DNA from: Cryobacterium frigoriphilum
GTDB lineage: Bacteria > Actinomycetota > Actinomycetes > Actinomycetales > Microbacteriaceae
Assembly (NCBI RefSeq): GCF_004403305.1
Contig: NZ_SOHE01000053.1
Span: 124,001-188,000, forward strand
Length of the DNA: 64,000 nucleotides
Direction: 5' to 3'
The notes under the pieces were generated by a model. The model was not told where the DNA came from. It was given only the letters and a program-made list of their open reading frames with translations, and searched no databases. The position numbers and the translations under genes were made by a program. Numbering within the stretch: the stretch's first letter is position 1; every line of letters starts with the position of its first letter. Of the stretch, positions 13,225 to 63,546 are shown piece after piece.

Positions 13225-13353
13225 GGCCGGCCTCCTCTATTCAGATCTTGCCGCCGCGAAACTGTGCAGCGGGCTTCCCACTACGCTACCCGAATCTGCG
13301 GGCCTGCGTCACCGCCCGGCACGCGCTGCGGCGCTGTTCGCGGGCACAGCGAA

Positions 13354-13392
13354 GCGACGGATGACCCCACTCGATCTGGGGGCATCCGTCGC
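13354..13392 (-). terminator. Hairpin downstream of proS
   Basis: A 10-bp perfect outer stem (GCGACGGATG with CATCCGTCGC), one mismatch, then a 4-bp CCCC/GGGG inner stem and a 9-base loop, 11 bp past the proS stop. It would end proS transcription before nusA. No U-tract is seen. Confidence 0.65.
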
Positions 13393-13403
13393 ATCCGTCG
13401 GCA

Positions 13404-45005: not shown

Positions 45006-48000
45006 TTAGACCCGGGAGTCAGACGAACGCCCAAACCCGGCAGCATCAGGATCCGCGGGCAGCATGCCGCGGCGAAGCGCCCCGTCGGGTGAGAGCACCC
45101 ACACGCGTGAACGACCGGGCAGCAGCGGAGGCGGCAAGTCGCGGCGGTGGCTGAGGAGGCGCAGATCGGCGTGGCTGCATCCGTCGAAGATCAGGGCGCC
45201 GCGCGCTCGGATCGCCGAGAGCAGTGCCCACTGGGCCTGCCAGGCGTCGGGGTCACCGACGATGACGGTGCCTGCCGTCGCGTCTCGCACCTCGAGACGC
45301 CCGACACCAGGCCCGGCCGAGTCCATGCCTGCGCTGCCGGGCTCGCCGCTGCCGGTCAGGTCGACGAGCCGAACGTCCGTGCCGAGCGAGCGGCGCAGCA
45401 TCGCGATCGTCCGAGCGGGCGCCCCAGACACGACGATCACCGGGGCGTTCTGCAGTAGCCGGCACAGGTTGAGCACCGGTGCCGGGTCGGCTGCGGCCCG
45501 CGCCGCGCACGGGGCCTGACCCGGTGGCGTTTCATCGTCGTCCAACGTCGCTGTCGCTGTGACTGTGGTTGTCGCCGCGAGCAGCTGCACGCGCGCCCCC
45601 TGCCAGCACCCACCGCCCGCCTCAAGGCCGTTATCGTACAGTCCGGCTGGCCCACCGGCCTCCCGATAGTCATCCCGGTCACGCAGCGACAACAGCAACC
45701 GACTGCGGCACAGTGCGCTGACGCCGCGCAGGCCCCCAGTCAGACGTTGCACTGCCAGCGCAACGTAGAGTCCGCGGCCCGGGCCGTCGCGCAAAATCAC
45801 GCTGAGCATCTCGAGCGCGGCGAGTTGATGCTCGGGGTGCAGGCGGGCACAGACCGAGTCGAGGTCATCGAGCAGCAACAACCGCGTGCCACCGACGCCG
45901 GGTTCACCCGCACCAGTCTCAAGCACGTGGCTGGCGTCGACGAGCGCGTCCCAGAGGTGTTCCACGTCGGCGATGACCGACTCCGTGCGGCACTGGCCCG
46001 TTCCCTGTCGCGCGAGGGTCGCGAGCAGCGAGCTCTTGCCCGATCGCGCGTCGCCAACGACGAGCAAGTGGCCGTCGGCAGCGGGCGTATAGCGGGCGAC
46101 GCTGTATCGCTGGCGGTGCGGCTCATCGGCCAGACCCATCCGAAACGAGGATTCGATGCCGACCACATCGACACCGCGGCCGAGATCGCACTCCGGCAGC
46201 ACCCGAGGAAGCGGGTCGAGCCAGGGCCGCCGCGGGCCGACCAGCCCGGGCCGGAGTCGGCAGGCCTCGATGCTTCTGACAGCGAGCGAACCCAGATCGG
46301 TGACCGTGGTCGTGGCGATCTGCCCGAGCACGGGCGCGCCGTCGCCGGCACTCACGAAGCACCGCCCCGGAACGGATGCGGGCAGCCCGGCCGCGGCATC
46401 CGTTCCGATGACCGCTTCGCTGTCGGCGCGATTGTTCACCCGCAGCGACAGCCGCAGGCTGCAATTGGCCAGCAGCGCGTCGCGCACTACCCCCGCCGGA
46501 CGCTGCGTGCACAGGATCAGGTGCACGCCGAGTGACCTGCCGCGGGCGGCGATGTCGACGAACAGGGCGTGCAGTGCGGGAAAGGCGGCGAGCATGGTCG
46601 CGAACTCGTCGACGACGATGACGAGGCGCGGCAGCGCCTGCCCCGGCACGAGCGTTCCCGGCAGCTCGCTCACATCGCGCACGCCGGCATCGCGCAGCAC
46701 GCCCTCGCGATAGCGCAGTTCCGCCGAGAGACTGGCGAGAGCCCGTGTGGCCTGCGCCGCGTCGAGATCCGTGATCACGCCAACGCAGTGCGGCAGTTCG
46801 GCCAGCGCACTGAAGGCGGCGCCGCCCTTGAAGTCCACGAGCAGAAATGTCACCGTGTCGGGGTCGAAACACGCCGCCATCGAGGCCACCCAGGTCACGA
46901 GCAGCTCGCTCTTGCCGCTGCCTGTGGTGCCACCGACGACCGCGTGCGGCCCGTGCCGTACGAGGTCGAGCATCAACGATCCCTCGGCCGTGACACCCAC
47001 CGGGCACGCGAGTCCGGCAGCCGCCACCCCCGCGCGCGCAGGCCCGGCACGCAACTCCCCCGCCCCCTCACCATCGGCCAGCAGCGCGTCGAATGCAACC
47101 ACGAGGGGCAGTTCGGCGGGCGCGCTCAACAGCCCGGCAGCCCCGGCCCGCTGCCGCACCACGCGGGCGAAAGACAACGCCTGTTCCGCGGCGATCAGGT
47201 CCGGCTCAAACCGGGTGCCCGGCGAGTGCGCCGGCGAACGCACGATCTCGGCCCGCGCGGGCCCGTGCACCCGAACGACCGTGCTGCATCCCCGCGGCAG
47301 CTCGGCCTCGGTGCGCGCCAGGAAGAGGACCCCGTTCGCTGTCGCCTGCCCGTGCCCAGCCACCCCCTCGGGCCCAAGAACGTCTCCGAACCCGTTCGCA
47401 TCACCGGGCGCCATCCTCTCGCCGATCAGCACCCGGTAGCCTGCCCGCGCCGCCGTCACCGAGGTGGCACCAGCTCGCGAGGCGGCCGCTCCGGGCACGC
47501 GGGCCTGACCGCGCTCAGAGCGATGCGGCAGTGCGCGCGTCCATTCCCAGGCTTCGCCCGGCGGGGCATCGACGGTACCGGCGTCCGGAGCCAGCGCGAA
47601 GCACAGTTGCACCAGAACCGCCCGTGCCAGCGCCCGGGTGAGTGCGGGCGGCCCGACGAGTCCGAGGCCACCGGAGACATCCGTCGTCAGCGGAGCACCG
47701 GTCAGTACGGCGGCCCAGTCGCGCAGCGCGCGCTCCTCGAGCGGGTCACGGGCCCCGCCCAGCAGGACCCCGCTCGCGATGTGGCCGCGCCCGAGGCTCA
47801 CGAGCATGGAGGCACCCGCAGACCACAGCCCGGCCTCCGCCGGAAGCGACATGATCGCGAGGGCACCGGGCGTGCGCCGTTCGGCGGCGAGCCGCAGCCG
47901 ATCATGACGATCGGCGACGATGCTTCTCAGCGAGTCGAGCATTCGGTCATGTTCCCGCCCATCGCGCACACCCTGCTTGCGGCGGGACCGGCGACCGTCC

Positions 48001-48260
48001 ACCAGACTGCCGACGGCGATGATCGGGCTGAGCAGACCGAACAGCAGGGCAAACGCCGACCCGGTGATCAGCCAGATCGCTACGGCCGCGCCCAGCGGGG
48101 CCAGGCAGGCCACCAACGGAAAAGCCTGGGCGGCCGGAACCGTGGGCAGCGGCGGAAGATTCAGCGGCTCATCGAGCGGTACCGCGCAGAACACTGCTGC
48201 GCCGAATGGCACGGCCTTCGGCGGCGTTGTGTTGGCGGTATCGACGTCACGGATGCGCAT
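45006..48260 (-). CDS. FtsK/SpoIIIE ATPase, EccC-like (type VII secretion-like)
   Basis: A 1,084-residue membrane-anchored DNA/protein-translocase-type ATPase. Two adjacent hydrophobic helices lie at about 47-87, as in EccC. The first ATPase has Walker A GGTTGSGKSELL (443-454), Walker B VIVVDEFATML (547-557) and LGVHLILCTQRPAG. The second has GDARSGKSSLLATL (736-749) and LLLLDDLDSVC. A third, C-terminal ATPase-like part (from about 930) has no Walker A. This matches the three-ATPase layout of EccC with a dead third domain. The start is put at ATG 48260, since 42 upstream codons are poor in coding character and rich in Cys and His. No WXG100 gene is adjacent. Confidence 0.83.
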   Translation of the reverse strand: MRIRDVDTANTTPPKAVPFGAAVFCAVPLDEPLNLPPLPTVPAAQAFPLVACLAPLGAAVAIWLITGSAFALLFGLLSPIIAVGSLVDGRRSRRKQGVRDGREHDRMLDSLRSIVADRHDRLRLAAERRTPGALAIMSLPAEAGLWSAGASMLVSLGRGHIASGVLLGGARDPLEERALRDWAAVLTGAPLTTDVSGGLGLVGPPALTRALARAVLVQLCFALAPDAGTVDAPPGEAWEWTRALPHRSERGQARVPGAAASRAGATSVTAARAGYRVLIGERMAPGDANGFGDVLGPEGVAGHGQATANGVLFLARTEAELPRGCSTVVRVHGPARAEIVRSPAHSPGTRFEPDLIAAEQALSFARVVRQRAGAAGLLSAPAELPLVVAFDALLADGEGAGELRAGPARAGVAAAGLACPVGVTAEGSLMLDLVRHGPHAVVGGTTGSGKSELLVTWVASMAACFDPDTVTFLLVDFKGGAAFSALAELPHCVGVITDLDAAQATRALASLSAELRYREGVLRDAGVRDVSELPGTLVPGQALPRLVIVVDEFATMLAAFPALHALFVDIAARGRSLGVHLILCTQRPAGVVRDALLANCSLRLSLRVNNRADSEAVIGTDAAAGLPASVPGRCFVSAGDGAPVLGQIATTTVTDLGSLAVRSIEACRLRPGLVGPRRPWLDPLPRVLPECDLGRGVDVVGIESSFRMGLADEPHRQRYSVARYTPAADGHLLVVGDARSGKSSLLATLARQGTGQCRTESVIADVEHLWDALVDASHVLETGAGEPGVGGTRLLLLDDLDSVCARLHPEHQLAALEMLSVILRDGPGRGLYVALAVQRLTGGLRGVSALCRSRLLLSLRDRDDYREAGGPAGLYDNGLEAGGGCWQGARVQLLAATTTVTATATLDDDETPPGQAPCAARAAADPAPVLNLCRLLQNAPVIVVSGAPARTIAMLRRSLGTDVRLVDLTGSGEPGSAGMDSAGPGVGRLEVRDATAGTVIVGDPDAWQAQWALLSAIRARGALIFDGCSHADLRLLSHRRDLPPPLLPGRSRVWVLSPDGALRRGMLPADPDAAGFGRSSDSRV

Positions 48261-48402
48261 GCCTCCAGCAGAGCAGACCGGCCGCTCGCGCGGGCGGCAG
48301 GATGCCGAAATGTGCATAACAGCGACGCGAATCTGCCTGTGCAGAACATCGCTCGGCGACCGCTTCGTGCCCCGGAACGGCGGCACGCGCAGACGAACGG
48401 CG

Positions 48403-49113
48403 TCAGGCGAGTACGAAGTACTGGTCGGCGATGTCGACCCGTGATCCTCGCGGCACCAGATAGCGCCGTCCGGGTTCGCAGCGCAGTGGCCCCTCCGAGG
48501 GTCGCTGCAGCACGCTGCCGTTGCCCGAGAACCGGTCGCTCACCCAGAATTGGCCGCCGTGTTGGCCGAACTCGAGGTGACTTTTCGACACCGACATGCC
48601 GGAATCCTGAATCTGCACCAGGTGATCAAACACCTCGCCGGGCTGCGGCAGCGGACGCCGACCGATCAGGCCGGAACCGTGCACGTTCACGGTCTCTCCG
48701 GTGCTGAACTGAAGCACGAACCGCACCCCGTCGGGTCTGGGTGCGTTCGGTGAATCCCCCGGCGGCAGAGCCTCAGAAACCGGCACCGGCACGGCAGAAA
48801 CCGGCACCGGCACGGCAGATACCGGCACCGGCACCGCGGCGGGCGCGGGCGGCACCGGCCCGATCCGTTCCGCGGGCGGCGGCGCAGCGGGAACGGGCAC
48901 CGAGATCACCGTCGAACGCGGCAGGGGCTGAATGATCGTGGTATCGCGACCGCGCGGATCGGGGCGTCGCCGGGTCAGCGGCGTGGCCGAGGTGGAACTT
49001 CCACACTCGCCGCAAAACATCGCACCGGAAGGAAGCGTCGCGGCACAGATCCGACAGCGAGCCGCATCGGTACCCGGCGGTCCGGCCCCGCCTGTCCCGG
49101 CCTTACTGGTCAC
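48403..49113 (-). CDS. Zinc-ribbon plus FHA-domain protein
   Basis: A 236-residue cytosolic adaptor. Cys20, Cys23, Cys34 and Cys37 form an N-terminal zinc ribbon (CRICAATLPSGAMFCGEC). A DTTIIQP site (about 57-63), similar to the phospho-Thr acceptor sites in the FHA gene at 62395, precedes a Pro/Val-rich linker that holds three exact 21-bp DNA repeats (AVPVPVS). The FHA domain covers about 150-236, with LIGRRP, the SKSHLEF phosphate-contact region and SDRFSGNGS. It is translationally coupled to the transglutaminase gene (GTGA) and follows AAGGAG. Likely role: reads phospho-Thr made by the kinase of this cluster. Confidence 0.85.
   Translation of the reverse strand: MTSKAGTGGAGPPGTDAARCRICAATLPSGAMFCGECGSSTSATPLTRRRPDPRGRDTTIIQPLPRSTVISVPVPAAPPPAERIGPVPPAPAAVPVPVSAVPVPVSAVPVPVSEALPPGDSPNAPRPDGVRFVLQFSTGETVNVHGSGLIGRRPLPQPGEVFDHLVQIQDSGMSVSKSHLEFGQHGGQFWVSDRFSGNGSVLQRPSEGPLRCEPGRRYLVPRGSRVDIADQYFVLA
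48774..48836. repeat. 21-bp tandem repeat in the zinc-ribbon/FHA gene (3 copies)
   Basis: Three 21-bp units begin at 48774, 48795 and 48816 (two identical, one with three changes). They encode three AVPVPVS heptapeptides in the linker between ribbon and FHA domain. Confidence 0.92.
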
Positions 49114-51482
49114 CTTGCTCCTTCTGAACGAGAGGGTTTCTTCCCTCCAGCGTACCGACCAAGCGAACGCAGCGAGAGCAACGCCCGCAGCCGATCGCGA
49201 CGGGTGTGTTCGACGGCCAGCGAGCGGCGCAAGGCGCCGACGGATGCCCACACCCGGTCCGCGTCCGCGTTCGACGGGGTGTCCGGCGCGAAGACGGCGC
49301 GGTCGACAAGTTCGGCGAACACGACGGGCGGGGTACCGCCGAGTGCGGGCGTTCCGCCCACGGATGCGGCCAGCTCGGCCCGTGTCGTGCCGACGGCGGC
49401 CACGCCGTTGAAGTCGGTGACGGTGTCGGCGAACTCTCGCCAGCCGCCTCCGATGCGTTCCCCGGCGGTGCCGCGGGATCGGCGCAGATACCGACGTCGG
49501 GTTTTGATTGCGACGACGACGAGCAGGGGCGACAGCAGCACCAGAAGAGCCAGCCCGCTCCAGCCGACAATCTGCAGCACAGCGAACAGCAACGCCAGGA
49601 GCGGATCGATCGGCGCGGGCGGGTCTTCCACCGTCGTGTCCGGCGGCGGCGTGTCACGGGGGTCTTCGATGTCGACGACGGGCGGCGGCAGCACCGACTG
49701 TGGGCGGGACACGACCGACGGGTCGTCGGGCTGCTTCGCCGGCACCTCCCGGAAGGCCGGATTCGGGTCGATCATGACCCAGCCGTCGAGGGCGGTTTGT
49801 ACCTCGATCCAGGCGGTCACGTCTGCGCCGGTGACGGCGACGGCGCCCTCGGGGTCGGCCGCGGCATCCGGGGCGAAGCCCAGAACCACCCGGGCCGGAA
49901 AACCGAGGCTGCGGGCCAGGATCGCGGCCGCCACGGCGTACTGTTCCTCATCGCCGAGCATGGGCACATCGGTGAAGAGTTGCGTCATGCGGTCTGCGCC
50001 GTGGCCGGACCGGCTGACCGGTTCGTCGGTGCCCACGCCATGGCTGATGTAGCCGCGCGTCAGCAGGTCATCGAGCATCGCCTGCAGCTGCTCGCCCGGT
50101 GTGTCCCCGGCCTGCTGGGCCTCTTCGAGCGCGGCCAGCATGCCGTCGGGCACCGCGATCGGAGCGAGCACGGCCGAACCGGGCAGGGCAGTGGCCAGAT
50201 CCCCGGTCGATTCGGGCACGACGGAACGACTCTCATACCGGTCGCCGCGGGTGAGCCCGCCGATCACCGCCGCCGACCCACCCACATCGTTGTAGTAGAA
50301 GGAATCACTGCGCGCCACGGCGGTGTCGCCGCCGAACACGACCTGTTCCAGCTGCCCGGCACCGGGCACCCAGACGCCCGTGTAGCCGAGAACCTCGACC
50401 TGCAGCACGACCTCCTGACCATCGACGGCGCTCTGATCGAGCCGATACGGCAGCCGCGTGAACGAACCGGAGTCGGCCGATCCGGTCTCGCTCCGCGCGG
50501 CCCCGGCCTCGCCGCCGGCGGCAAACACGACCCCGTCGTAGCTGTCGAGGGTCGCGAGCCGCAGCCGCTCACCGGTCGGCAGTCCGGTCACCCGCAGCAG
50601 GGTGTCGTCGACGGTTGGGGACTGCAGATAGCTGCGGAACCCGCTCAGCGGGCTGGCATAGTCGTTGGGGTTGAACGGTTGCTGCACGTGGCTGCGCACC
50701 ACGTCGCGTGCTCCTGCCGGCGGCACGGCCAGCGAGGCGGCCGTACCGGCCGCAATCGCGAGCGCGATGATGGCCGCCGCGCTCACCAGCCGGCGAGCGG
50801 CCGCGAGCCGCCGGTCGCTCAGCGACTCGATCGTGCGGGCCGACTGCGCCGCCACAAGACGGGTGGCCCCGACGCGCCGACGCCAGCGAAACCAGAGCAG
50901 CCAGCTGAGCAGCAGCACGAGAAAACCGAGACCGAGTTCGACCGGGCGGGCCACGCTGCTCGGTCCGAGCGCGATGCCGGCAATGAAGAGGCCCACGGGT
51001 GCCAGAACCGCGAGCTCGCCGTGCGCGGACCGCAGGGCGACCGTCAGGCCGATGACCGTCGAGACGAGCACGAGGATGAGAGCGGGCACGAGCAGGGCCT
51101 GATAGTCCCCGACGGGCAGCGCGATCGTCACGAGCTGTTTCCAACCCAGCACGACCGCCATGGCGAGTTCCTGCACGCCCTCAACGGTGGGCAGCACACC
51201 GTTCACGGCCCGGGCCGGAACGGCCAGCGGCACACCGACGACCCCGAAGCCCAGGATTGTCACAAGAATAACGAGCCAGGCCGGCCAGCGAAACCGCGCG
51301 CCCAGAATCGCCACGGTGGCCCCGAGCACGAACCCGCCGGCCACCATCACAATGAAGGCTCGGCTCTGATAACTCGGCCAGAGGGTAGCGGATGCCGCTG
51401 CCGTCACCAGCAGCATCGCCAGCAGGTTGCCGAGCACTTTCGTCATGCCGAGCTGGTGCGCTGGTCGCTGACGCGTCGTCAT
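49110..51482 (-). CDS. Transglutaminase-fold membrane protein (TgpA-like) with degenerate catalytic site
   Basis: A 790-residue membrane protein. Seven helices fill residues 10-265; the extracellular transglutaminase-like domain follows (about 270-600) and one more helix and a cytoplasmic tail complete it. In the core, GDEEQYAVAAAILARSLG (510-527) lies where active enzymes have a catalytic cysteine in GxCxxFA, and GADVTAWIEVQTALDG (552-567) has Thr where the histidine should be; the Asp of MIDPNP (571-576) is kept. Thus cysteine-protease/transglutaminase chemistry is unlikely. The protein belongs to the widespread MoxR-DUF58-TgpA assembly and overlaps DUF58 upstream (ATGA) and the FHA gene downstream. 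Confidence 0.88.
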   Translation of the reverse strand: MTTRQRPAHQLGMTKVLGNLLAMLLVTAAASATLWPSYQSRAFIVMVAGGFVLGATVAILGARFRWPAWLVILVTILGFGVVGVPLAVPARAVNGVLPTVEGVQELAMAVVLGWKQLVTIALPVGDYQALLVPALILVLVSTVIGLTVALRSAHGELAVLAPVGLFIAGIALGPSSVARPVELGLGFLVLLLSWLLWFRWRRRVGATRLVAAQSARTIESLSDRRLAAARRLVSAAAIIALAIAAGTAASLAVPPAGARDVVRSHVQQPFNPNDYASPLSGFRSYLQSPTVDDTLLRVTGLPTGERLRLATLDSYDGVVFAAGGEAGAARSETGSADSGSFTRLPYRLDQSAVDGQEVVLQVEVLGYTGVWVPGAGQLEQVVFGGDTAVARSDSFYYNDVGGSAAVIGGLTRGDRYESRSVVPESTGDLATALPGSAVLAPIAVPDGMLAALEEAQQAGDTPGEQLQAMLDDLLTRGYISHGVGTDEPVSRSGHGADRMTQLFTDVPMLGDEEQYAVAAAILARSLGFPARVVLGFAPDAAADPEGAVAVTGADVTAWIEVQTALDGWVMIDPNPAFREVPAKQPDDPSVVSRPQSVLPPPVVDIEDPRDTPPPDTTVEDPPAPIDPLLALLFAVLQIVGWSGLALLVLLSPLLVVVAIKTRRRYLRRSRGTAGERIGGGWREFADTVTDFNGVAAVGTTRAELAASVGGTPALGGTPPVVFAELVDRAVFAPDTPSNADADRVWASVGALRRSLAVEHTRRDRLRALLSLRSLGRYAGGKKPSRSEGAR

Positions 51483-52804
51483 GCGGCGGCCGATCGGGCG
51501 AGGCTCTTCTGCAGGTCTTCCAGAAACCCGATGGTGAGCACGCTGAGTTCGGCCACCCGCCGCAGGGTCGGCGGTGCCTCCGGGTCGCAGACGACGGCGA
51601 CGACCTCGACACCGGCCGGAAACTGCGTCGACGCGGCACGCAGCTGTGCGAGCGTCGTCGGTGTTCCGCAAATCAGAAACGCCACCGAGATACCGGCCAC
51701 CGTTTCGGCGGCGACCGCCGCGAGTCCCTGCAGCGGCAGCGCCGTCTGGGCCGGCTCGACGCCGCTCAGATCGTCGAGCAGACGGCCGCGCGAGAGGGTA
51801 CTGAGCGGCCGCACCGCGGGCATCCGTCGTACTGCTCGGGATCGACGACCGCCACGCGGCGCGCCTGGCCGCCCCGCCCCGTCGAGGGCGCTCACCACGA
51901 CGGAAACGGTACGGCCGTCACGAATCGCGCGAATGCCCAGAGACCCGGCGACACTCACGGCCATCTCGAATTCGTCGTCACTCGCGTAGTCGCCGCCGAA
52001 CAGGCTCAGCGCGACCATGAGGTGACTGCGCCGGCTCTCCTCGAACTGGCGCACCATGAAGGTGCCCGTCTTCGCGGTGCTCTTCCAGTGGATGCTGCGG
52101 CGTTCGTCGCCCGCAACGTACTCCCGCAGCGCGTGGAACGAGACATCGTCCGTCGTCAGGTTGCGGGTCGGGTGCCCCTCGAGGTCGCGGATGAACCCGG
52201 TGCTCATGCTCGGGATCGACAGTGTACGCGGGTGCACGAACAGCTCGATCGGTTGCGCCCAGACCCGTTCCTTGCGCACGAGCCCGATGGGGTCGCTGCG
52301 CACGGTGCGCACCGGACCCACCGAAATGATGCCGCGGCGGGTGGTGGGAACGAGAAAGACGTCTTCGAAGGCGGCGCCTCGCGCGAGGCCGGGCATCAGG
52401 AACGTCGCCAGCCCGCCACCGACGGGTACTTCGATACTGACGCCCGGCAGGTGGCGCCGGCTCGGGTTCGTGACGCCGACGAGTCCCGGGGAGCGTTCAC
52501 CCGCGACGACGCGGGTCACCGGCATCGCCAGGGTCACGAGATAGGCATCGCGGCCGATCAGGTAGCCGCCGGCAGCGAAGAGCAGAATGGTTCCGGCCCA
52601 GGCGATGGCGACGAGCTCGGCCCAGCCGAGGCCGTAGCCGGCCAGAAACGCCAACGAGACAGCGACCGTCAGGCTCCAGCCGAGCGGGGTGACGACGGCC
52701 CCGACCACGGCGACCGCCCGAACGGCGCGCCGACGCAGCGCCCTGCCCCATCCGATCACACGCTCGAGAACCTCCGTGAGCCGGCCGTCACCAACCTGAT
52801 TCAC
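51479..52804 (-). CDS. DUF58 membrane protein
   Basis: A 441-residue protein with two helices near residues 30-80, then a beta-rich part and the DUF58 signature, DDVSFHALREYVAGDERRSIHW (about 217-238), followed by KSTAKTGTFMVRQFEE. A von-Willebrand-like region (LMVALSLFG, TVSVVVSALDG) fills the C-terminal half. DUF58 proteins accompany MoxR ATPases in nearly all phyla and are thought to help assemble or mature surface or metalloprotein complexes. GTG start at 52804, 7 bp from moxR. Confidence 0.88.
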   Translation of the reverse strand: MNQVGDGRLTEVLERVIGWGRALRRRAVRAVAVVGAVVTPLGWSLTVAVSLAFLAGYGLGWAELVAIAWAGTILLFAAGGYLIGRDAYLVTLAMPVTRVVAGERSPGLVGVTNPSRRHLPGVSIEVPVGGGLATFLMPGLARGAAFEDVFLVPTTRRGIISVGPVRTVRSDPIGLVRKERVWAQPIELFVHPRTLSIPSMSTGFIRDLEGHPTRNLTTDDVSFHALREYVAGDERRSIHWKSTAKTGTFMVRQFEESRRSHLMVALSLFGGDYASDDEFEMAVSVAGSLGIRAIRDGRTVSVVVSALDGAGRPGAPRGGRRSRAVRRMPAVRPLSTLSRGRLLDDLSGVEPAQTALPLQGLAAVAAETVAGISVAFLICGTPTTLAQLRAASTQFPAGVEVVAVVCDPEAPPTLRRVAELSVLTIGFLEDLQKSLARSAAA

Positions 52805-52811
52805 CCGAGGT

Positions 52812-53900
52812 TCACCCCGCCTGGCGCTCGCTCGGCGGCGGCGTCTCGATCAGAATCTGGGCGATGACACTCGACGCGGTCACGCCGTCGAACTCGGCCT
52901 CCGGGTCGAGCAGTAGTCGGTGGGCGAGCACGGGTTCGGCGAGTGCCTTCACATCATCGGGCAGCACGTAGTGCCGACCATTAGCCGCGGCCAGGGTCTT
53001 CGCGGTGCGAATCAGCGCGAGGGCCCCGCGCACGCTGGCTCCCAGGCGCACCTCCGGCGCGTTGCGGGTCGCGTCCACCAGACGGGACACGTAGTCGTTG
53101 ATCGTCGAGTCGACGAACACGGTGCGGGCCAGGGCGGCGAGCTCCACGACGGTGCCGGCGGAGAGCACCGCGGCCACGACCAGTTCGTGCGGTCGGGCGC
53201 TCGCGCCCTCGAGAATTCGGATGGTGGAGGCGTGATCGGGATAACCGATCGAGGACTTCATGATGAACCGGTCGAGCTGCGCTTCGGGAAGGCGGTAGGT
53301 TCCCGACTGCTCGATGGGGTTCTGAGTGGCGATGACCATGAAGGGGGCGCCGACCGGGTGCGTCACGCCGTCGGCGGTGACCTGGCCTTCTTCCATCACT
53401 TCGAGCAGCGCGGCCTGGGTCTTCGGGCTGGCCCGGTTGATCTCGTCGGCGAGCACGATATTGGCGAAGATCGGTCCGCGGTGAAATTCGAAGATGCCGC
53501 TCTTCTGGTCGTAGATGCTCACGCCCGTGATATCGCCCGGCAGCAGGTCGGGCGTGAACTGTACCCGGTTGGAGGTTCCGCGCACGCTCTGCGCGATCGC
53601 CCTCGCGAGCGACGTCTTGCCGGTGCCCGGCACGTCTTCGAGCAGCAGGTGTCCCTCGCTCAGCAGCGCCACGAATGACAGGCGAATCACATGTTTCTTA
53701 CCGAGTACGACGTGTTCGACCCCGCGCACCAACCGCTCGAAGGCGTCGGCGAACTGGCTGGCCTGGTCCGGACTCATGGTCATAGCGGGGGTGGTTCCGT
53801 TCATTCGGTGCTGAAATTCCGTGGTGAGGGCAGTGCCATCGAGGGACGTGCCATCGAGGGACGTGCCGTCAAGGGCAGCGGGGTCAGTTTCTATAGTCAT
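52812..53900 (-). CDS. MoxR-family AAA+ ATPase
   Basis: A 362-residue AAA+ chaperone-like ATPase. Walker A is EDVPGTGKTSLARAI (89-103), Walker B is IVLADEINRASPKTQAAL, sensor 1 is FMVIATQNPIEQSGTY and the arginine finger region is LPEAQLDRFIM. The N-terminus carries three LDGTS-type pentapeptides encoded by 15-bp repeats before conserved sequence starts at about residue 45. The ATG at 53900 is preferred (GGGG ten bases upstream); an ATG at 53912 also lies in frame. It overlaps the end of the giant Ig protein gene by 17 bp. Confidence 0.92.
   Translation of the reverse strand: MTIETDPAALDGTSLDGTSLDGTALTTEFQHRMNGTTPAMTMSPDQASQFADAFERLVRGVEHVVLGKKHVIRLSFVALLSEGHLLLEDVPGTGKTSLARAIAQSVRGTSNRVQFTPDLLPGDITGVSIYDQKSGIFEFHRGPIFANIVLADEINRASPKTQAALLEVMEEGQVTADGVTHPVGAPFMVIATQNPIEQSGTYRLPEAQLDRFIMKSSIGYPDHASTIRILEGASARPHELVVAAVLSAGTVVELAALARTVFVDSTINDYVSRLVDATRNAPEVRLGASVRGALALIRTAKTLAAANGRHYVLPDDVKALAEPVLAHRLLLDPEAEFDGVTASSVIAQILIETPPPSERQAG
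53826..53870. repeat. 15-bp tandem repeat at the moxR N-terminus (3 copies)
   Basis: Units at 53826, 53841 and 53856 (consensus GAGGGACGTGCCATC) encode the repeated LDGTx pentapeptide of MoxR. Confidence 0.85.
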
Positions 53901-56900: not shown

Positions 56901-59862
56901 TGCCGACCCGCACCAGACCGGTCGCCCGCGCCCCGAGAGCGTCGATGACGGCGTAGGTGAAGGTGTCGGTTCCGGCGGCGTAGTCCCCCGATTCAAACTC
57001 GATCCAGTCCGCACCGACGCCGGTCACGGCACCCTTCTCCGGGTTCGTTTCCTGCCCGAGCAGCTGCACGGAATCACCGTCGGGATCGATTCCGGCCAGT
57101 GGAATCGAGATGCGCACCGTCTCACCGGCGAGTACCCGCGCGGTCACGGTCTGCGGAATCGGAGCCCGGTTGGCGTCCCGATCCACCTCACGCACCGAGA
57201 TCGTCACCTCGGCGTTGGCAAACTGCCCATCAGGGGCATTCACGCGGTACACGGCCGTGAAGTTACCGGGCGCTTCGGGAGCCAGATAGCGCAATCCGCT
57301 TCCAGACACGAACAGCAGGCCAGCGTCACTGCCGAGCGGCGTCGCCAGCTCCGACGCGAGGGTCAGCGTGTCTCCGTCGGGGTGTTCATCGTTGGCGAGC
57401 ACCGGAATGTCGATCGCGTCGCCGACCCGCACCGAGATGCTGTCCGGCCTGGCCAGCGGGGCCTGCTTGCGGGCGAGCGCCGGCAGCTCGATGACGGTGA
57501 CGGTGCCGTCGGCCGCTGCCAGGCCGTTGCTGACCCGGTATGAAAAGGTGACCGGGCCGTCGAGCGGTTTCGTGAGCGTGACCCGGATCAGCCGCTGGTC
57601 GAGCACCTCGACCCGCAGGCCGCTGCCGACGGGCACGTTCATCGTGCCGGTGACCAGCAGTACGCCGCCGCCGGGGTCGATGTCCCCCGCCAGAACGTCG
57701 ACGAGTGCCGAGTCCTGACCCCGGATGAAGGCGGTGTGCGGCACCGTGATCGGCGTGCTCGCAGCATCATCGGCCGCCGTCACCTGCACTCGTACCTGGC
57801 CGACAGCGGTCACGCCGGAATCGTCGGTCACGACGAATTCCAGGTAGTGCGGGCCGACGACGCTGCTGAGAAAACGAAAGGTTCCGGCGTTGACGTCGGT
57901 CGTGATGGTCGCGTCCGATTTTGTCGGCACCGTGCTGAGGCGCAGTGCTCCCGAGCCGCCGCGAACGTGATCGAGGGGGGAGACGGTCACCTCGGCGCCC
58001 GCGGTGGCGAGAACGAGAAAGGTATCGGCCACGATCGGTACCGATCCGACCGCTCGCACGTTGACGCTCAGGGTGCCGGTGCCGTCGAGGCTTCCGTCAG
58101 ACACCACGAGTCCGACCTGCACGCCGCCGTCGGAGTTCGACGCGGCATCGCTCGCCACACCCGATCCGCCGTGGGTGAACGTGACGGCGCCGTTCGGGGT
58201 GAACGAGACGGCGTCGGGAGCGGTGACGTTGACCGCCGTGAGGTAGAACGGGTCGCCGTCAGGGTCGACCCAGTCGCCGAGAACCTGGGTTGTGACAGCG
58301 GACCCGGCCTCCACCGTCGCGGTGCTCGTGCGCACCTGCACCGGTGCGGAATTTTCATCCGCCTGGCGCACCGTGACCGTCACCGTTGCCGTGGCGGTGC
58401 CGCCGCGCCCGTCGCTGATCGTGTAGTCGAAGACCACGGTCCCGGACGCCTCCGAGCCGAGGGTGAGCTGAACCTGTTGGCTGTTGGCGATGAGGTCGAG
58501 GTGACCCTGTTCGGGGTCGATCGGGGTCACGTCCGTGATCATGAGCACGTCGTCGTTGGGGTCGTAGTCGTTCAGCAACACGGGCAGGGTCAGCGCGCGG
58601 CCTGGTCGGCCACCGAACTCGTCATCCTCGGCGACGGGAGGCAGCTGAGTGTCCTCGAATTCGGGCGCATCGTCGAGGTTCTCCTCGACCCGTTCGGGGT
58701 CGACGACACTGTCGATGAGTTCGTCCCAGTTGTCGATGAGGGCCGTTCCCTGCTGCACGGCCCACGCGCTGCCGTTGCGGGCGTCGCTCAGCACCACGCC
58801 GAGACCGTTCACCTGAAATTCCAGCCGGGCATCCCCGGCCAGGGCATCGAGCGTGGTGAGGGCACCATCTGGTCCGGTGCCGGCGGTTCCTGTGCTGTTC
58901 GAGCCGGCGCAGCCCTGCCAGGCGGAGCCGTCCGACCAGGCCGCGTAGGCGCATCCGTCGACGGAGACCGGCTCTGCCGGCTGCCCGGTGCGACCCGAAA
59001 CCAGCGTTCGCGGTTCACCACCGGTCAGCCCCACGGAGATCAGGCCGCCCTCATGCGCCACGAGCAGGCGGTCTCCCCGAGGCGTGGCCCGCTGCAGGAC
59101 CGACTCCCCCACGAGGTCGGCCGACAGGTCGATTTCACGGTTGTTCAGAAAGAGGATGCCGCTGGTGGCGTTGAGCAGCGCCCAGTCACCATTCACGCTC
59201 GTGAGCCGGTAGGCGTCGTCGGCGTCGCCCGCATCGACCGTGACCGTGGCCGAGATGCGGTCGGAGTCGTTGACCGAGACGGTGACGAGGGTTCCGGTCG
59301 CGGGAGTGAAAGAATGCAGCAGCCCGTCGGCGGCGACGCTCACGACCGATCCGGTTCCGAGCGCCAGGTCGGGGCGGCTCAAACTGTCGAAGGTGTCGAG
59401 TCCGGCCGTCGGCAGGTTCCAGACGTCGCCGTTGGCGGCGATGACCGCGCGGCCGCCGGCCAGAAACACGTCGGGATCATTCGGCGGCAGCGCCACGCTG
59501 TCTGAGAGTTCTGCCGTGGCGGGGTCGAGGATTTCGAGCGTGCTGTTTGCCTCGTCAACGACGAGTACCGTCTCACCGGCCTGGCGCAGCGCGAGCGTGG
59601 CGCTGCCGGTCTCGACGACGGTGTTCAGTTCGAGCACGGCCGTGTTCGCCCGCCCGACGGCCTGACGGCTCTCGTTGGCCACCCAGACCGCCGCATCGTT
59701 AAGATCCAGGCGCTGCGCCGTGTAGCCGCCGGAGACGACCGCGAGGGTCGCCACGAGGGCGACGACGACCGTGCTCGCGAGGCTGGTAATCGTGCCGGAA
59801 CGGTGAGCGGCGAGCCAGGGCCCGATTCGAGCACGAAGCGATGCCGCGTCGGCGACACTCAC
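53884..59862 (-). CDS. Giant membrane-anchored Ig-like/fibronectin type III protein
   Basis: A 1,992-residue protein. After about 22 residues, a single helix (25-47, TITSLASTVVVALVATLAVV) anchors it; the rest faces outward and there is no C-terminal anchor. Residues about 50-480 show repeated short strands with LDPATAEL and VLVVDEAN-like elements that resemble a beta-propeller. From about 480 to 1540, ten or so modules carry the motif LxNDxDPxGD (for example PVLLNDYDPNDD, VLANDEHPDGD, VLANDSDPDGG), typical of bacterial Ig/cadherin-like domains with calcium-binding Asp. The last 450 residues look like fibronectin type III and contain paired cysteines. The GTG start (59862) overlaps the kinase stop (GTGA). 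Confidence 0.85.
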   Translation of the reverse strand: MSVADAASLRARIGPWLAAHRSGTITSLASTVVVALVATLAVVSGGYTAQRLDLNDAAVWVANESRQAVGRANTAVLELNTVVETGSATLALRQAGETVLVVDEANSTLEILDPATAELSDSVALPPNDPDVFLAGGRAVIAANGDVWNLPTAGLDTFDSLSRPDLALGTGSVVSVAADGLLHSFTPATGTLVTVSVNDSDRISATVTVDAGDADDAYRLTSVNGDWALLNATSGILFLNNREIDLSADLVGESVLQRATPRGDRLLVAHEGGLISVGLTGGEPRTLVSGRTGQPAEPVSVDGCAYAAWSDGSAWQGCAGSNSTGTAGTGPDGALTTLDALAGDARLEFQVNGLGVVLSDARNGSAWAVQQGTALIDNWDELIDSVVDPERVEENLDDAPEFEDTQLPPVAEDDEFGGRPGRALTLPVLLNDYDPNDDVLMITDVTPIDPEQGHLDLIANSQQVQLTLGSEASGTVVFDYTISDGRGGTATATVTVTVRQADENSAPVQVRTSTATVEAGSAVTTQVLGDWVDPDGDPFYLTAVNVTAPDAVSFTPNGAVTFTHGGSGVASDAASNSDGGVQVGLVVSDGSLDGTGTLSVNVRAVGSVPIVADTFLVLATAGAEVTVSPLDHVRGGSGALRLSTVPTKSDATITTDVNAGTFRFLSSVVGPHYLEFVVTDDSGVTAVGQVRVQVTAADDAASTPITVPHTAFIRGQDSALVDVLAGDIDPGGGVLLVTGTMNVPVGSGLRVEVLDQRLIRVTLTKPLDGPVTFSYRVSNGLAAADGTVTVIELPALARKQAPLARPDSISVRVGDAIDIPVLANDEHPDGDTLTLASELATPLGSDAGLLFVSGSGLRYLAPEAPGNFTAVYRVNAPDGQFANAEVTISVREVDRDANRAPIPQTVTARVLAGETVRISIPLAGIDPDGDSVQLLGQETNPEKGAVTGVGADWIEFESGDYAAGTDTFTYAVIDALGARATGLVRVGISARLDGARNPIAAPDEVVVRPGSTVSVRVLANDSDPDGGSLSLLSVEPTDAAGVASIDGDVISVQAPAAEGRTGFIYEIQNERGGTGSSFLTVVVDKEAVRAHPDARDTVLTLSDVLDHPSIDVDVLARVFFAEGQASELKLGVLPGYARQAKVTADQRIRVTVGDDSQIIPFSVTHPDDDSIVSYAFIWVPGYSDALPQLRTNVAALSVASESSLSIDINDYVVAVGAKRVSLTDEAAVRASHSDGANLVESDDSLVFTSADGYYGPASISFEVTDARRAGDTEARSATIVLPITVTPRDNQPPAFDGAVLDFEPDQTTVVDLQKLTSYPYPDAVDELAYTVLAPEPTGFEYGLNGSLLTIRAAEGAEKGSESALVIGVRDDLSEGEAGRIELNVVASTKPLAIPAADQVLAPRGQTTVVDVLANDTATNPFPAVPLRVVAVRGLDGAGVPTGVTITPSTDRSQLSVSVAATAEPVDTTVQYQVADATGDADRYAWGTVRVSVQDVPDPVSRVTVTGFGDASLSLSFNAGAANNAAISGYDITLVDAGSGAPVSTSTCAATTCTVATGGNGQANAVRVSVTAVNALGRSASAAFGGAVWSNVVPVAPTGLTAAPLDGGLRLGWRTVGASQGGTAVSTYVVTVNGVERAQVSATSCSSGACSLDVDGLNNGAVASYTVSARNDSFAALSSWNSARADGTPYGPPRAGGISATATDASGRVTVSWNAFDGAGSAIGGYFVQRLSGQSVPTGAQACSVSEPAPGTLVPPRAGGDVAEQKSAAAAATSATFDVSLADNRSYSFVVWGYNQAGCVATAVATVLVSPVPGQITSVQGGMEPRGQAPESIARDYHLTGLQGGGATVSYYELRSAGSGLGGGERFGGAGTADVWPRELLAEPFGQTVDFELRACNASGACGAWSASFSAPEASVSLAVRGVAYDADTGVFSWTNAPDNGADYPATFTCSADTADASTAADSGNTCTLAEPAPAGGAQLTVTVNGATHDYRN

Positions 59863-61385
59863 CGGTCGTCCCCGTGTATGTCGCCGGCAACAGGCCCGGC
59901 GGCATCCCCGGCGACATCGACGCACTTCTCCCGGCTGGGCTCGCCGTACTTGCCGGCTCGGTTGACGGTCACGGTCACGCAGACGCTCGCCGCACCGTGC
60001 GGGTCGACGGTGAAGGCCGTGCCGCGCTGAATACTTGTCTCCCCGGAGCGCAGGGCGACGACGTAGCTGTCGCCCTGCTGGGTTCCCGGATCGGTCCACT
60101 CGAACAACACTCGGCCATTGCGCTCTGAACCGTCGACGTTGGTGACGCGCGGGATCGCCGCGTCGGTGGACTGCAGCAGCACGGCCGCTCCGGCCGCGGT
60201 TCCGCCGACAAGAACGACGGATGCCGCCACGAGCACCCAGAGCAGGCCGACTCGACGCCGTGGCCTGCTGAGCACCGTGGCCGAACTGCCGAGAGCGCTG
60301 CGGCTGCCGGCGGTGCCGTGAACAGAGGGATACCGATGTCCGGACAGCGGCTCGGCGAGCGGCAGCCGACCCGATGGCCCGACCGCCGCCGCTCGGGTAA
60401 GCGCCGGGCGAGCGGAAGCGGAACGGCGGCGCCTGGCCGGGGCAGGGTCGATCGACGCGACGCCGGTGATGCGGGTCTTGTCGTCGGGGTCGGCCGTGGC
60501 GGCCGCGGCCCAGTCTTCGAGGGCCACTTCGAGCGGCGTCTGCGCCAGCCCCAGGTCGGCTTCCACCGTCTGAAGTTCCCGCACCAACTCGAGCACGCTC
60601 CGTTGCCGTGCCTGGGGGTTACGGCTCATCGACCGGGTGAGCAGCGCGTCGAGCCGGGCGGGAACATCCGCTCGACCGATCGGCGGCACCTTCGCGCGCA
60701 CGATGCGGCCCATCAAATCGGCGGTGGAGTTCTCGGACCCGGGCACCTCGAACGGGGAGCGCCCGGCGAGCAGCGAGTAGAGGGTCGCGCCGAGCGACCA
60801 GACCTCGCTCGCGATGGTGCCCGAAACCTCGTCGAGCAGCACTTCCGGTGCCGACCAGGGGATCGACAGGCCCACGGCGTCGGCTTTTTCGGCCTCGTTG
60901 AGCGTGGACGCGATGCCGAAGTCGGACAGCACGGGATGACCGTAGGCGGTGACCAGAATGTTCGACGGTTTAATGTCGCGGTGCAGCACGCCGGCCCGGT
61001 GGGCCGTTTCAACCGCGCTCGCGATCTTGATGCCGATGCGCAAGACGTCGGGAACGGCCAGCGGCGCGGCGCGATAGCGCTGGCTGAGGCTGGCCGAGCA
61101 GTATTCCATGACCAGATAGGGCCGACCGTCGCTCGAGACGCTCGACTGGAACACCGTCAAAATCGACGGATGTGAGCTCAGCAGGGCCATCAGGTCGGCC
61201 TCGGCCCGAAACATCTGCCGCACCTGATCGGTGACGATGCCGGCGAGCAGCACCTTGACCGCGACGGGCCGCCGCGGCAGGTTTTGCTCGTACAGAAAAA
61301 CGTCGGCGAAACCACCCGACCCGAGAACGCGCACGTAAGAGAACCCCGGCAGGTTGGGCGGGGGTGACGGCAGTCGTCGCGTCAT
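59859..61385 (-). CDS. Transmembrane serine/threonine protein kinase with external FN3-like domain
   Basis: A 508-residue kinase. The glycine loop is RVLGSGGFADVFL, the ATP lysine is Lys43 in PVAVKVL, the catalytic loop is VLHRDIKPSNILV (His135-Arg136-Asp137), the metal motif is SDFGIAS (154-160) and the activation segment ends IPWSAPEV. A linker (about 300-378) with basic residues leads to one helix (379-403), then about 100 external residues with the strand pattern RVLFEWTDPGTQQGDSYVVA that resembles fibronectin type III, plus two cysteines. The neighbour gene encodes FN3 modules of similar appearance. No PASTA repeats are present, so peptidoglycan sensing is unlikely. Confidence 0.92.
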   Translation of the reverse strand: MTRRLPSPPPNLPGFSYVRVLGSGGFADVFLYEQNLPRRPVAVKVLLAGIVTDQVRQMFRAEADLMALLSSHPSILTVFQSSVSSDGRPYLVMEYCSASLSQRYRAAPLAVPDVLRIGIKIASAVETAHRAGVLHRDIKPSNILVTAYGHPVLSDFGIASTLNEAEKADAVGLSIPWSAPEVLLDEVSGTIASEVWSLGATLYSLLAGRSPFEVPGSENSTADLMGRIVRAKVPPIGRADVPARLDALLTRSMSRNPQARQRSVLELVRELQTVEADLGLAQTPLEVALEDWAAAATADPDDKTRITGVASIDPAPARRRRSASARPALTRAAAVGPSGRLPLAEPLSGHRYPSVHGTAGSRSALGSSATVLSRPRRRVGLLWVLVAASVVLVGGTAAGAAVLLQSTDAAIPRVTNVDGSERNGRVLFEWTDPGTQQGDSYVVALRSGETSIQRGTAFTVDPHGAASVCVTVTVNRAGKYGEPSREKCVDVAGDAAGPVAGDIHGDDR

Positions 61386-61513
61386 GCGTGCCTTCCCGCT
61401 TCTTATACCAGTGCGTCGTGAATCAGTCCGCGCTTGCCGTGAGGGTTGAACGGGCGATACCGCTCATTGTAAGCAGGCTCACCGCGCCGTTCATCGCCCC
61501 ATCCGGGCCAGTT

Positions 61514-62338
61514 TTACGAATCTGTCCCCAGCAGGGGGGCAGACTCACCGCTTTCGTGCACGATGTCCAGCACGTCGAGCACGATAGCGGTCACGTTGTC
61601 ACGTCCGCCATTCTCGAGGGCGGCGTCAACGAGCGCCTGCACGGCGTCCTCCGCTCGGGGCATCGACATCAGAAAATGACGGATGCCGTAGGCCGTGAGT
61701 TCTTTCGTGAGGCCGTCGGAACAGACGAGGATGCGCATGCCCACCTGCAGGGGCAGCACGCGGTAGTCCGGCACGGGCGGTTCATGAAAGCCGACCGCGC
61801 GGGTGATGACGTTACCGTGCGGGTGCACGTCGGCCTCTTCGCGGGTGATGCGACCCGCGTCGACGAGTTCCTGCACCACCGAGTGGTCGACGGTGACCTG
61901 TTCGAGAACACCCGAGGTGAGCTGGTAGACCCGGGAATCTCCGATGTTGAACACGATCCACTGCGCGGCCCCGGAGACGATCCCGAGGGCGACACCGGTG
62001 ACCGTGGTTCCGGTTCCCTGGTCGGTGACGCCCACGCCGTGGGCCATATCGATGACCGCCTGGCTGAGGGCCTGGTTGAGGGCCTCGGCGTCGGTCACGG
62101 CCGCGCCGGCCAGGTCGGCGAGTCGGGTGACGACGGCCGCGCTGGCGACGTCGCCGGCCGAGTGGCCGCCCATGCCGTCGGCCACGGCGAAGACGGGCGG
62201 ATCGGCGATGAGGCTGTCTTCGTTCACCTCGCGGCGATGGCCGGTGTCGGTGAGCATTGCCCAGGCGAGAGTCACGGTGGTATTGGCCTGAGGCAGGTCA
62301 ACCGTGAAGGTGGTCGAACTGCGACCGAGCTGAGTCAC
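61514..62338 (-). CDS. PP2C-family serine/threonine phosphatase
   Basis: A 274-residue metal-dependent phosphatase that reverses kinase action. Metal ligands and family motifs appear in order: TDTGHRREVNEDS, FAVADGMGGHSAGDVASA, GTGTTVTGVAL, NIGDSRVYQL, ILVCSDGLTKEL and GRDNVTAIVLD. It has no membrane helix, so it is cytosolic, unlike PstP-type enzymes. The start at GTG 62338 is chosen for the first conserved residues, but a longer product from GTG 62392, three bases from the FHA stop codon, cannot be excluded. The kinase gene lies 128 bp downstream. Confidence 0.92.
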   Translation of the reverse strand: MTQLGRSSTTFTVDLPQANTTVTLAWAMLTDTGHRREVNEDSLIADPPVFAVADGMGGHSAGDVASAAVVTRLADLAGAAVTDAEALNQALSQAVIDMAHGVGVTDQGTGTTVTGVALGIVSGAAQWIVFNIGDSRVYQLTSGVLEQVTVDHSVVQELVDAGRITREEADVHPHGNVITRAVGFHEPPVPDYRVLPLQVGMRILVCSDGLTKELTAYGIRHFLMSMPRAEDAVQALVDAALENGGRDNVTAIVLDVLDIVHESGESAPLLGTDS

Positions 62339-62394
62339 GGATGGAGCCTTCCGAGGTCGGATGTGCGGAACGAGAGCGACGCTGAGCCGCACGG

Positions 62395-63546
62395 TTATCG
62401 CAGGATTTCGACGCTATTGCCGTCCCCGATGTCTACTACTGTACCGGGCGTGACCGCGAGAGACTGGCCCGAACGCAGTCGGCGGGTGCGACCGTGCGGC
62501 GGGCGCACGACCGTACCGTTGGTGGAGCCGAGGTCGGTGACGACGATCGAGTCTCCCTCCTGACGGATTTCGAGGTGGGTCGACGAGACCGCGGAGGTCG
62601 GCGACGGCACGGCCAGCAGTCGCGGCGGCTGCCCGATGACGATGCGCGGCAGCCGTGGCTTACGGCCCAGCACGTAGGCCTGATCGAGCCGATGCGGTTC
62701 GCCGGAAGACAGCTGGAACGCGTGGCTGGTGACCCGTTCCGTGGCCGGGTCACGACGCGGCGTTGGGCCGGCTTGAGGGTCGTCGCGCACCGCGGGTGCC
62801 GGCGCCGGAGTCGGCTCGGGCTCGCCGACGATCTGGCCGTGCCGTGCGGCATGCGGCGGGCGAATGACCGTGTCGGCGTCCATCGCTCGGGACTCGGCGC
62901 GTTCCGAACCCGCCCAGGACTCGGTCGGGACCCGCAGCACGGTGTCCGCCTCGGCGAGCGCCCGCGGTGGGCGAATCACGGTGTCGTACTCGGGAAGGCC
63001 GTCGAGCTCGCGAGGAGCCTCATACGCCGTGCCAACGTCGTCGCTTTCCGGGGCGGCCAGGACCGACCAGAACAGGGAGGTGCCGGCGAAGGCACCGGTG
63101 CCCACTCGCTGACCGGCACCGAGTCCGCCGGCGGCGAGCATCGGGGCATCCATCGACCCGATGACCAGCCCGGTCACGGCACGAAAGTCGGCGAGCAGCC
63201 ACGGTCGAATGCCACGGTCGCTGAACCGACGCGATCCTCCGATCGAGAACACGTCGGCCATGGCGGTGCCCCGCACGACCGCGGAAACCGGGATACCGTC
63301 ACCGTCGGTGGCCTGTCGCGGCACAACGACGAGAAAGCTGGTGATGGCTTCCGCACCCGTCAGCGGCAGCAGGGCCACAATCGATTCGAGGTCGAGTGCC
63401 TCGTCGAGAACGCGTTCCGTCAGGCAGTCCACCACGCCGCGTGCGGTCCCGAACGGCACACCGGCCAGAAAGCGACGACCCACCACGAAGATCCAGGCCG
63501 CCGGTGCCCCTGGCGACATGACGACGGCGACGCGTCCCTGTGGCAT
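62395..63546 (-). CDS. FHA-domain protein with repeated DTVIRPP phospho-Thr-like motifs
   Basis: A 383-residue cytosolic protein. The N-terminal about 170 residues form an alpha/beta domain I do not recognise. Three similar sequences follow, DTVIRPP (188-194), DTVLRVP (201-207) and DTVIRPP (225-231), in a charged linker. The FHA domain occupies about 290-383, with VLGRKP, SSTHLEI and GSTNGTVVRPP. The acidic-Thr-hydrophobic motifs look like kinase acceptor sites that FHA domains read, as in mycobacterial GarA, so the protein may be a switch that binds its own or a partner's phospho-Thr. It is the first gene of the cluster visible here. Confidence 0.85.
   Translation of the reverse strand: MPQGRVAVVMSPGAPAAWIFVVGRRFLAGVPFGTARGVVDCLTERVLDEALDLESIVALLPLTGAEAITSFLVVVPRQATDGDGIPVSAVVRGTAMADVFSIGGSRRFSDRGIRPWLLADFRAVTGLVIGSMDAPMLAAGGLGAGQRVGTGAFAGTSLFWSVLAAPESDDVGTAYEAPRELDGLPEYDTVIRPPRALAEADTVLRVPTESWAGSERAESRAMDADTVIRPPHAARHGQIVGEPEPTPAPAPAVRDDPQAGPTPRRDPATERVTSHAFQLSSGEPHRLDQAYVLGRKPRLPRIVIGQPPRLLAVPSPTSAVSSTHLEIRQEGDSIVVTDLGSTNGTVVRPPHGRTRRLRSGQSLAVTPGTVVDIGDGNSVEILR

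Follow-up and report, generated by a model that had tools for sequence, protein, structure and literature searches.

A nine-gene kinase, MoxR and short EccC-like ATPase cluster of Cryobacterium as a possible T7SS-related envelope machine under phosphorylation control

The PFNA gene cluster of Bifidobacterium consists of pkb2-fn3-aaa-atp-duf58-tgm, with prpC, a hypothetical gene and fha added in some species (PMC8430577, PMC6803598). Orthologues of PFNA were not found in other organisms according to PMC6803598, PMC8430577 describes the cluster as unique to bifidobacteria, and the mycobacterial moxR operon is reported to resemble it (PMC12067865). Variants of the type VII secretion system (T7SS), T7SSd and T7SSe among them, combine an EccC/EssC-type ATPase with a kinase, a phosphatase and FHA proteins (Garrett, Higginson and Palmer 2024, PMC11217815); T7SSd includes a giant Ig-like envelope protein and, according to the abstract of that paper, occurs in Bifidobacterium too. 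A further described arrangement is the MoxR-DUF58-transglutaminase module of the MRP subfamily (Wong and Houry as cited in PMC6803598). This study analysed a cluster of nine genes on the minus strand at positions 45006-63546 of a 64,000-nucleotide stretch of a Cryobacterium genome (hereafter the window; positions 124001-188000 of contig C57, genome G000). The genes, FHA1-PP2C-PK-BIG-MoxR-DUF58-TGM-FHA2-FtsK, are listed in Table 1. There is a slightly better than even chance that they encode a machine of the cell envelope that is under phosphorylation control, is related to the T7SS and has a short EccC-like motor of its own.

The five core genes of PFNA are found in the window cluster in the same order and are likewise accompanied by PP2C and FHA genes. 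The cluster differs in starting with FHA1 and PP2C, in having a zinc-ribbon FHA2, and in closing with the EccC-like FtsK. In the eight-gene form of PFNA both prpC and fha stand downstream of tgm, whereas here PP2C and FHA1 are upstream of PK and the other FHA gene is downstream of TGM. The term FtsK is absent from the text of PMC8430577 and PMC6803598. Homologues of PFNA, often in the same order, were found across Microbacteriaceae and other families. Three Bifidobacteriaceae loci (G003, G134 and G148) with the arrangement kinase-BIG-MoxR-DUF58-TGM are the PFNA cluster itself, the kinase of G134 being 90% identical to one from B. asteroides.

The window cluster shares the ATPase, kinase, phosphatase and FHA proteins with T7SSd and T7SSe, and the giant Ig-like protein with T7SSd, whose membrane Ser/Thr kinase TsdD is matched by PK (a kinase domain and one transmembrane (TM) helix). 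It differs from both in that no WXG100 protein is encoded in the locus and no FHA domain was found on the ATPase in Pfam and profile scans. Unlike TsdI of T7SSd, which is Ig-like with a signal peptide and a C-terminal TM helix, BIG has its TM-like stretch at the N-terminus and none at the C-terminus by hydropathy. The terms MoxR and transglutaminase are absent from the main text of PMC11217815. The MoxR-DUF58-TGM order is that of the MRP modules, from which the window cluster is distinguished by a TGM without the catalytic Cys and by the tie of the module to a kinase, BIG and FtsK. In the open full-text literature, which leaves subscription papers outside, no work was found joining either PFNA or MoxR-DUF58-TGM with the T7SS. 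The parts, PFNA and the T7SS variants containing kinases and FHA proteins (PMC11217815) are already in print. The same open literature yielded no report of the version with a miniature EccC, of the order that recurs in the family, of genomes that have this version and no other EccC, of the link between PFNA and the T7SS, or of the loss of the TGM Cys.

Table 1. Genes of the cluster, with positions in the window
Gene	Positions	Strand	Product and features
FHA1	62395..63546	-	383 aa; Pfam FHA
PP2C	61514..62392	-	Ser/Thr phosphatase; 292 aa; PP2C_2 match; start possibly 62338
PK	59859..61385	-	Membrane Ser/Thr kinase; 508 aa; Pfam Pkinase
BIG	53884..59862	-	Surface protein; 1,992 aa if GTG start 59862
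MoxR	52812..53900	-	AAA+ ATPase; AAA_3; start 53900 or 53912
DUF58	51479..52804	-	Membrane protein; 441 aa
TGM	49110..51482	-	Polytopic, transglutaminase fold; 790 aa; Transglut_core; start 51482
FHA2	48403..49113	-	Zinc-ribbon and FHA protein; 236 aa; start 49113
FtsK	45006..48386	-	Short EccC-like ATPase; 1,084 aa from 48260, 1,126 aa from 48386

The resemblance of FtsK to EccC, proposed in a first-pass annotation of the window, was borne out by both sequence and predicted structure, which show homology over the membrane stalk and the ATPases at scores under the NCBIfam cut-offs. The protein has two TM helices, the first starting at about residue 49, followed by a stalk, ATPase1, ATPase2 and a shrunken third domain (about residues 930-1066) in which a P-loop was not seen in the alignment. 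The fold from the membrane stalk to the second ATPase is common to FtsK and the EccC/EssC ATPases, but FtsK does not have three full ATPase domains and is shorter, with 1,084 aa compared to 1,463-1,552 aa in 13 clear EccC proteins of the linked loci described below. The third ATPase of the type VII ATPase is the one that binds substrate. In the EccC tree, which is unrooted and from which 8 of 43 rows with an unmatched ATPase1 segment were dropped (seven unlinked EccC loci and the outgroup), the short FtsK proteins form a separate, single clade, while a doubtful EccC from genome G066 has a very long branch. By sequence and modelled structure, FtsK is a divergent relative of the type VII ATPase EccC.

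A link of the remaining genes to type VII secretion, also suggested on first reading, was found in other families. Of the 149 order genomes, 81 have a TGM match; 71 of the 81 belong to families other than the window's, and 30 loci of up to 40 kb were taken from 28 of those 71 genomes, chosen for family spread. These loci contain DUF58 (30), BIG (29), MoxR (29), PK (28), PP2C (21) and a further conserved protein, X274 (16). A match of EccC length occurs in 14 of them, the G066 one being doubtful, and none in the other 16, so that a clear EccC stands beside the module in 13 of 30 loci, belonging to eight other families. WXG100 was detected in at least 10 of the 30, a lower bound given by a weak in-house profile, which recovered this protein in 8 of 19 loci where its presence is known. 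A paralogous cluster on contig C88 of the window's own genome (L051, L052) has the order BIG-MoxR-DUF58-TGM-FHA(RDD)-PP2C-FHA-PK-[FHA-ABC]-X274-EccC-WXG100, with an EccC of 1,497 aa and a WXG100 match of 27.0 bits against a family cut-off of 27.3; in this order it is probably an undescribed T7SS layout. Homologues of the kinase, BIG, MoxR, DUF58, TGM, PP2C and FHA genes hence sit in EccC loci both elsewhere in the order and in the same genome.

X274 has no Pfam match; by eye its N-terminus is FHA-like and its C-terminus helix-turn-helix-like, and it is likely a regulator combining the two. A scan of named genomes gave at least 591 X274 loci, and the best 80, nearly all from Arthrobacter and kin, were analysed with flanks of 10 kb. 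They contain PK (80), EccC (78), PP2C (78), DUF58 (77), TGM (77), MoxR (17) and WXG100 (17), but not BIG; the zero for BIG and most of the low MoxR count are probably due to the end of the flanks. One Arthrobacter-like X274 locus, with 77% identity, comes from an entry titled Sporosarcina beigongshangi (L215, NZ_JADHDY010000023.1), perhaps a contamination or a misnamed assembly. A third cluster of the Cryobacterium genome, on contig C63 (L053:8815-19889), has the order BIG-MoxR-DUF58-TGM-FHA and is located beside aconitase-family (leuC/leuD-like) genes; a kinase and a phosphatase were not matched in the 20 kb covered there.

The distribution of the short FtsK was determined in two steps. Among 149 genomes of the order, 21 matched FtsK at 1e-70, and these comprised 10 short forms, all in the window's family (own genome included), and 11 long EccC-type frames. 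In the family itself, 175 of 199 genomes matched at 1e-40, long EccC forms included. The final set of 49 relatives' loci with a short FtsK, from 41 genera, was made up of 40 from the family listing (39 genera, two loci being from the window's genus) and 9 from the order sample, with 8 further short-form genera outside it. Genes were counted by tblastn, the home-made gene caller having produced wrong-strand shadow open reading frames; loci L118, L133 and L136 run to the end of their stretch. PK, BIG, MoxR, DUF58, TGM and FtsK are all present in 32 of the 49 loci, and the order is retained in 31, from 29 genera, L133 being excluded only as its FHA1 match falls on FHA2. All nine genes occur in the same order in 26 loci, which rules out a chance neighbourhood. 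The lack of conserved order named in the first-pass annotation as one result that would speak against a common machine was therefore not encountered in most of the sampled loci.

The association of FtsK with the kinase-MoxR part is not constant. Along with the 32 loci in which they occur together, there are 16 that retain FtsK without PK, BIG, MoxR, DUF58 and TGM, and one more, L147, is mixed. In all 16 reduced loci PP2C precedes FtsK on the same strand at a distance of 110-2,099 bp between the matches; FHA2 is present in seven of them and FHA1 in two. Three reduced loci of the window's genus (L034, L114 and L115) have the flanks of the window locus, namely alanine dehydrogenase on one side and a DUF4192 gene on the other, with an ABC pair also in two, and so represent the same locus minus its middle block. 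The persistence of PP2C-FtsK without this block suggests that the phosphatase and the motor form a minimal core. Counted by the TGM match alone and not by neighbourhood, a TGM at least 54% identical to that of the window is found in 37 of 57 genomes of the genus.

The reduced loci would also fit a different explanation, in which the middle genes are a PFNA-type surface sensor or adhesion operon of the kind suggested for Bifidobacterium, and FtsK-PP2C is an adjacent but independent unit with a different function. The gap of about 108 bp before FtsK in relatives agrees with such a division, as does the finding that EccC was not detected within 40 kb in any of the three Bifidobacteriaceae loci. 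However, the module is followed by FtsK in the same order in 31 of the 49 loci, from 29 genera, and homologous modules adjoin a clear EccC in eight other families. An immune-signal role is also unlikely to apply in general, given that the organism studied here belongs to Cryobacterium. On these grounds the two-unit explanation is considered rather unlikely.

The relation of the cluster to WXG100 proteins and to other T7SS genes bears on two further explanations. In the window's genome, PF06013 matches lie only on contigs C62, C54 and C88, none near the cluster, and a hand comparison placed none of the matches listed for relatives inside the short-FtsK stretches, which extend mainly upstream of FtsK. 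The in-house profiles, that for WXG100 being the weak one noted above, found neither X274 nor WXG100 in any of 50 loci (the window cluster and its 49 relatives). The 20 kb to the right contain DUF4192, an ABC pair, TetR and an ATP synthase gene, and no T7SS partner was seen among these neighbours, models for EccB/EccD/EccE and EssA/EssB/EsaA not having been searched genome-wide. A standard ESX locus just outside the window was rejected on these neighbours and on the WXG100 locations.

Two more EccC genes of the window's genome are located on contigs C54 and C88. Twenty-five genomes, picked mainly on hints of single matches, were searched with the C88 EccC, and in 13 of them the short FtsK was the only EccC-family match at E<=1e-30; 12 of these 13 bear the cluster, 11 with all nine genes, several of the 13 being drafts of 90-100% completeness. 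Judging from this gene content, the cluster appears able to do without a canonical T7SS alongside it in the cell. Each of the 13 genomes encodes exactly one WXG100, flanked on one side by the genes of a response regulator and a sensor kinase and on the other by a chaperonin gene, with no EccC beside it.

The constant presence of this single WXG100, always in the regulator-sensor locus, is what would be seen if the short FtsK were its motor in trans and the cluster one half of a split type VII system. On the other hand, the third ATPase-like domain of FtsK is shrunken and without a P-loop. Among 24 genomes without EccC/FtsK matches, 20 were tested and WXG100 was present in 17, in 16 above the cut-off (presence only, not context), so the orphan WXG100 is not clearly tied to FtsK, and a split system appears improbable. 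An accessory role of the cluster to an ordinary T7SS encoded elsewhere, with common WXG100 substrates and core, would suit the occurrence of WXG100 in all 50 genomes checked and of EccC on C54 and C88, but is disfavoured to a similar degree by the 13 genomes, 12 of them with the cluster, in which the short FtsK is the only EccC-family match and the single WXG100 adjoins regulatory and chaperonin genes and not EccC.

The orphan WXG100 of the window's genome lies on C62 (L235:7230-7520, minus strand). Of the 18 corresponding stretches fetched from relatives (L236-L253), all have the sensor kinase and response regulator with it, at about 90-99% identity, and 17 have the chaperonin (Cpn60) gene.

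The residues expected of a phosphorylation switch are conserved, as counted among called genes. The catalytic residues of the kinase are retained in 31 of 32 proteins, the five Asp ligands of PP2C in 44 or 45 of 45, the phosphothreonine-site R/S/H/N of FHA1 in 30 of 30, and the Walker residues of MoxR in 28 of 28. The two FHA readers claimed by the first-pass annotation stand on different footing: FHA1 is recognised by Pfam, while FHA2 gave no Pfam match at E<=0.001 and reached 18.8 bits against an FHA cut-off of 20.7 in a looser scan, its phosphothreonine-site residues being kept in 33 of 33 proteins. The CxxC...CxxC zinc ribbon of FHA2 is likewise sub-threshold in Pfam, and its Cys residues are found in 13-21 of 33, the remainder being nearly all alignment gaps. 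The FHA1 linker carries three DTV[IL]R motifs (about 62985-62971, 62946-62932 and 62874-62860). The related pattern [DE]T[VIL][VILMA]R occurs 21 times in 30 FHA1 linkers (14 of 30 with at least one), compared to a mean of 0.57 and a maximum of 3 in 200 shuffles; with the window, from which the pattern was derived, left out, 18 motifs remain in 13 of 29 proteins. No excess was found in the other eight families, and the motif is absent from all 26 FHA1 proteins of the order type.

In an alignment of TGM with 6g49, a protein-glutamine gamma-glutamyltransferase, the catalytic Cys is replaced by Glu and the His by Thr, so the Cys-His-Asp triad of an active transglutaminase or cysteine protease is lacking. 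Cys was found at the catalytic column in none of 141 homologues of at least 500 aa (76 from close Arthrobacter kin, 33 from the window's family and 30 order-wide), the His being retained in some, for example in Arthrobacter. By sequence, the transglutaminase fold of TGM is a pseudoenzyme, and it is very unlikely that the tgm product is a transglutaminase, which corrects an annotation. In an unrooted TGM tree, the 19 sampled proteins of the window locus type fall into a single group (96/87), and the TGMs linked to EccC are spread over the tree.

If the preferred reading of a phospho-controlled envelope machine is correct, its function may be inferred as follows. The C-terminal domain of the kinase would sense the cell surface, and the kinase would phosphorylate Thr, the best candidates being the DT-type repeats of the FHA1 linker. 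FHA1 and FHA2, as readers of the phosphorylated sites, would gate the short membrane ATPase of EccC type, and PP2C would reset the switch. MoxR with DUF58 and the dead polytopic TGM may serve as a chaperone for assembly and as a scaffold in the membrane. BIG, a giant protein that crosses the membrane once, may span the wall as a conduit or receptor, as has been proposed for TsdI and EsaA of other T7SS. A candidate substrate is BIG itself, or a WXG100 encoded elsewhere.

Two findings limit this reading. The occurrence of FtsK and PP2C without PK, BIG, MoxR, DUF58 and TGM in 16 of 49 loci argues against one fixed machine, and the WXG100 independence suggested by the first-pass annotation is unproven, because all 50 genomes (49 relatives and the window's) encode a WXG100 above the Pfam cut-off. 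A more specific version is tentative, a possibility to which we give less credence than to the envelope machine as such. It holds that Microbacteriaceae have a distinct EccC-driven machine without a full T7SS, in which a two-ATPase miniature EccC is gated by the kinase, PP2C and two FHA proteins, and which is assembled by MoxR, DUF58 and the pseudo-transglutaminase around a wall-spanning protein of 2,000 residues; PFNA would then be related to a control and scaffold module of the T7SS whose motor was lost, or never acquired, in the PFNA lineage, and would not primarily be an immune sensor. The comparison joins two literatures: that on PFNA, understood as a host-immune sensor in gut bifidobacteria, and that on the kinase- and FHA-containing variants of the T7SS. 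If it is right, the genes of PFNA constitute a module of an envelope machine in free-living actinomycetes. An EccC without adjoining WXG100 would help to ask what a T7SS motor does alone, and the phospho-switch of an EccC-like motor becomes directly testable.

The nine genes may form one transcriptional unit, as stated in the first-pass annotation. The 4-base overlaps that had been described for most junctions are present in only three of eight (PK/BIG, with the sequence GTGA, DUF58/TGM and TGM/FHA2). The other five are +2, +128 (PP2C to PK), -17, +7 and +16 or more (FHA2 to FtsK). In relatives, with starts from the home-made gene caller, the median spacing is 113 bp at PP2C-PK (n=30) and 108 bp at FHA2-FtsK (n=32); because these two larger gaps recur, a single transcript is unproven. 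Scans for such signals found 0 promoter-like sites compared to 0.6 expected, and 7 terminator-like sites compared to 6.2 expected, nothing above chance; with counts so near chance, the scans do not help to define the operon structure.

Open reading frames, Pfam matches and a hydropathy scan confirmed the kinase, PP2C, BIG, MoxR, DUF58, TGM and FtsK domains given in the first-pass annotation. PK has a single TM helix at about residues 379-397, followed by a short C-terminal domain, and the score of PP2C against the Stp1 model is under the cut-off of that model. BIG contains an N-terminal TM helix, Big_9/cadherin-like repeats and fn3; its Ig-like content was confirmed, and the length first assigned to it is right with the GTG start. 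The predicted DUF58 model (pLDDT 71) gave weak matches to beta-sandwich (CARDB-like) folds, its C-terminal part being unconfident, and a vWA match was absent among the 50 structure matches listed. The nearest named proteins are from C. melibiosiphilum, with identities of 64% for FtsK and 85% for DUF58. In genome G121, the reduced locus L034 has a PhnA/YjdM-type zinc-ribbon gene between PP2C and FHA2 (13127-13417). The same genome has EccC-like matches in three pieces at C16:152904-155417, where EccC looks broken, and an EccC-like frame of 1,493 aa on C12.

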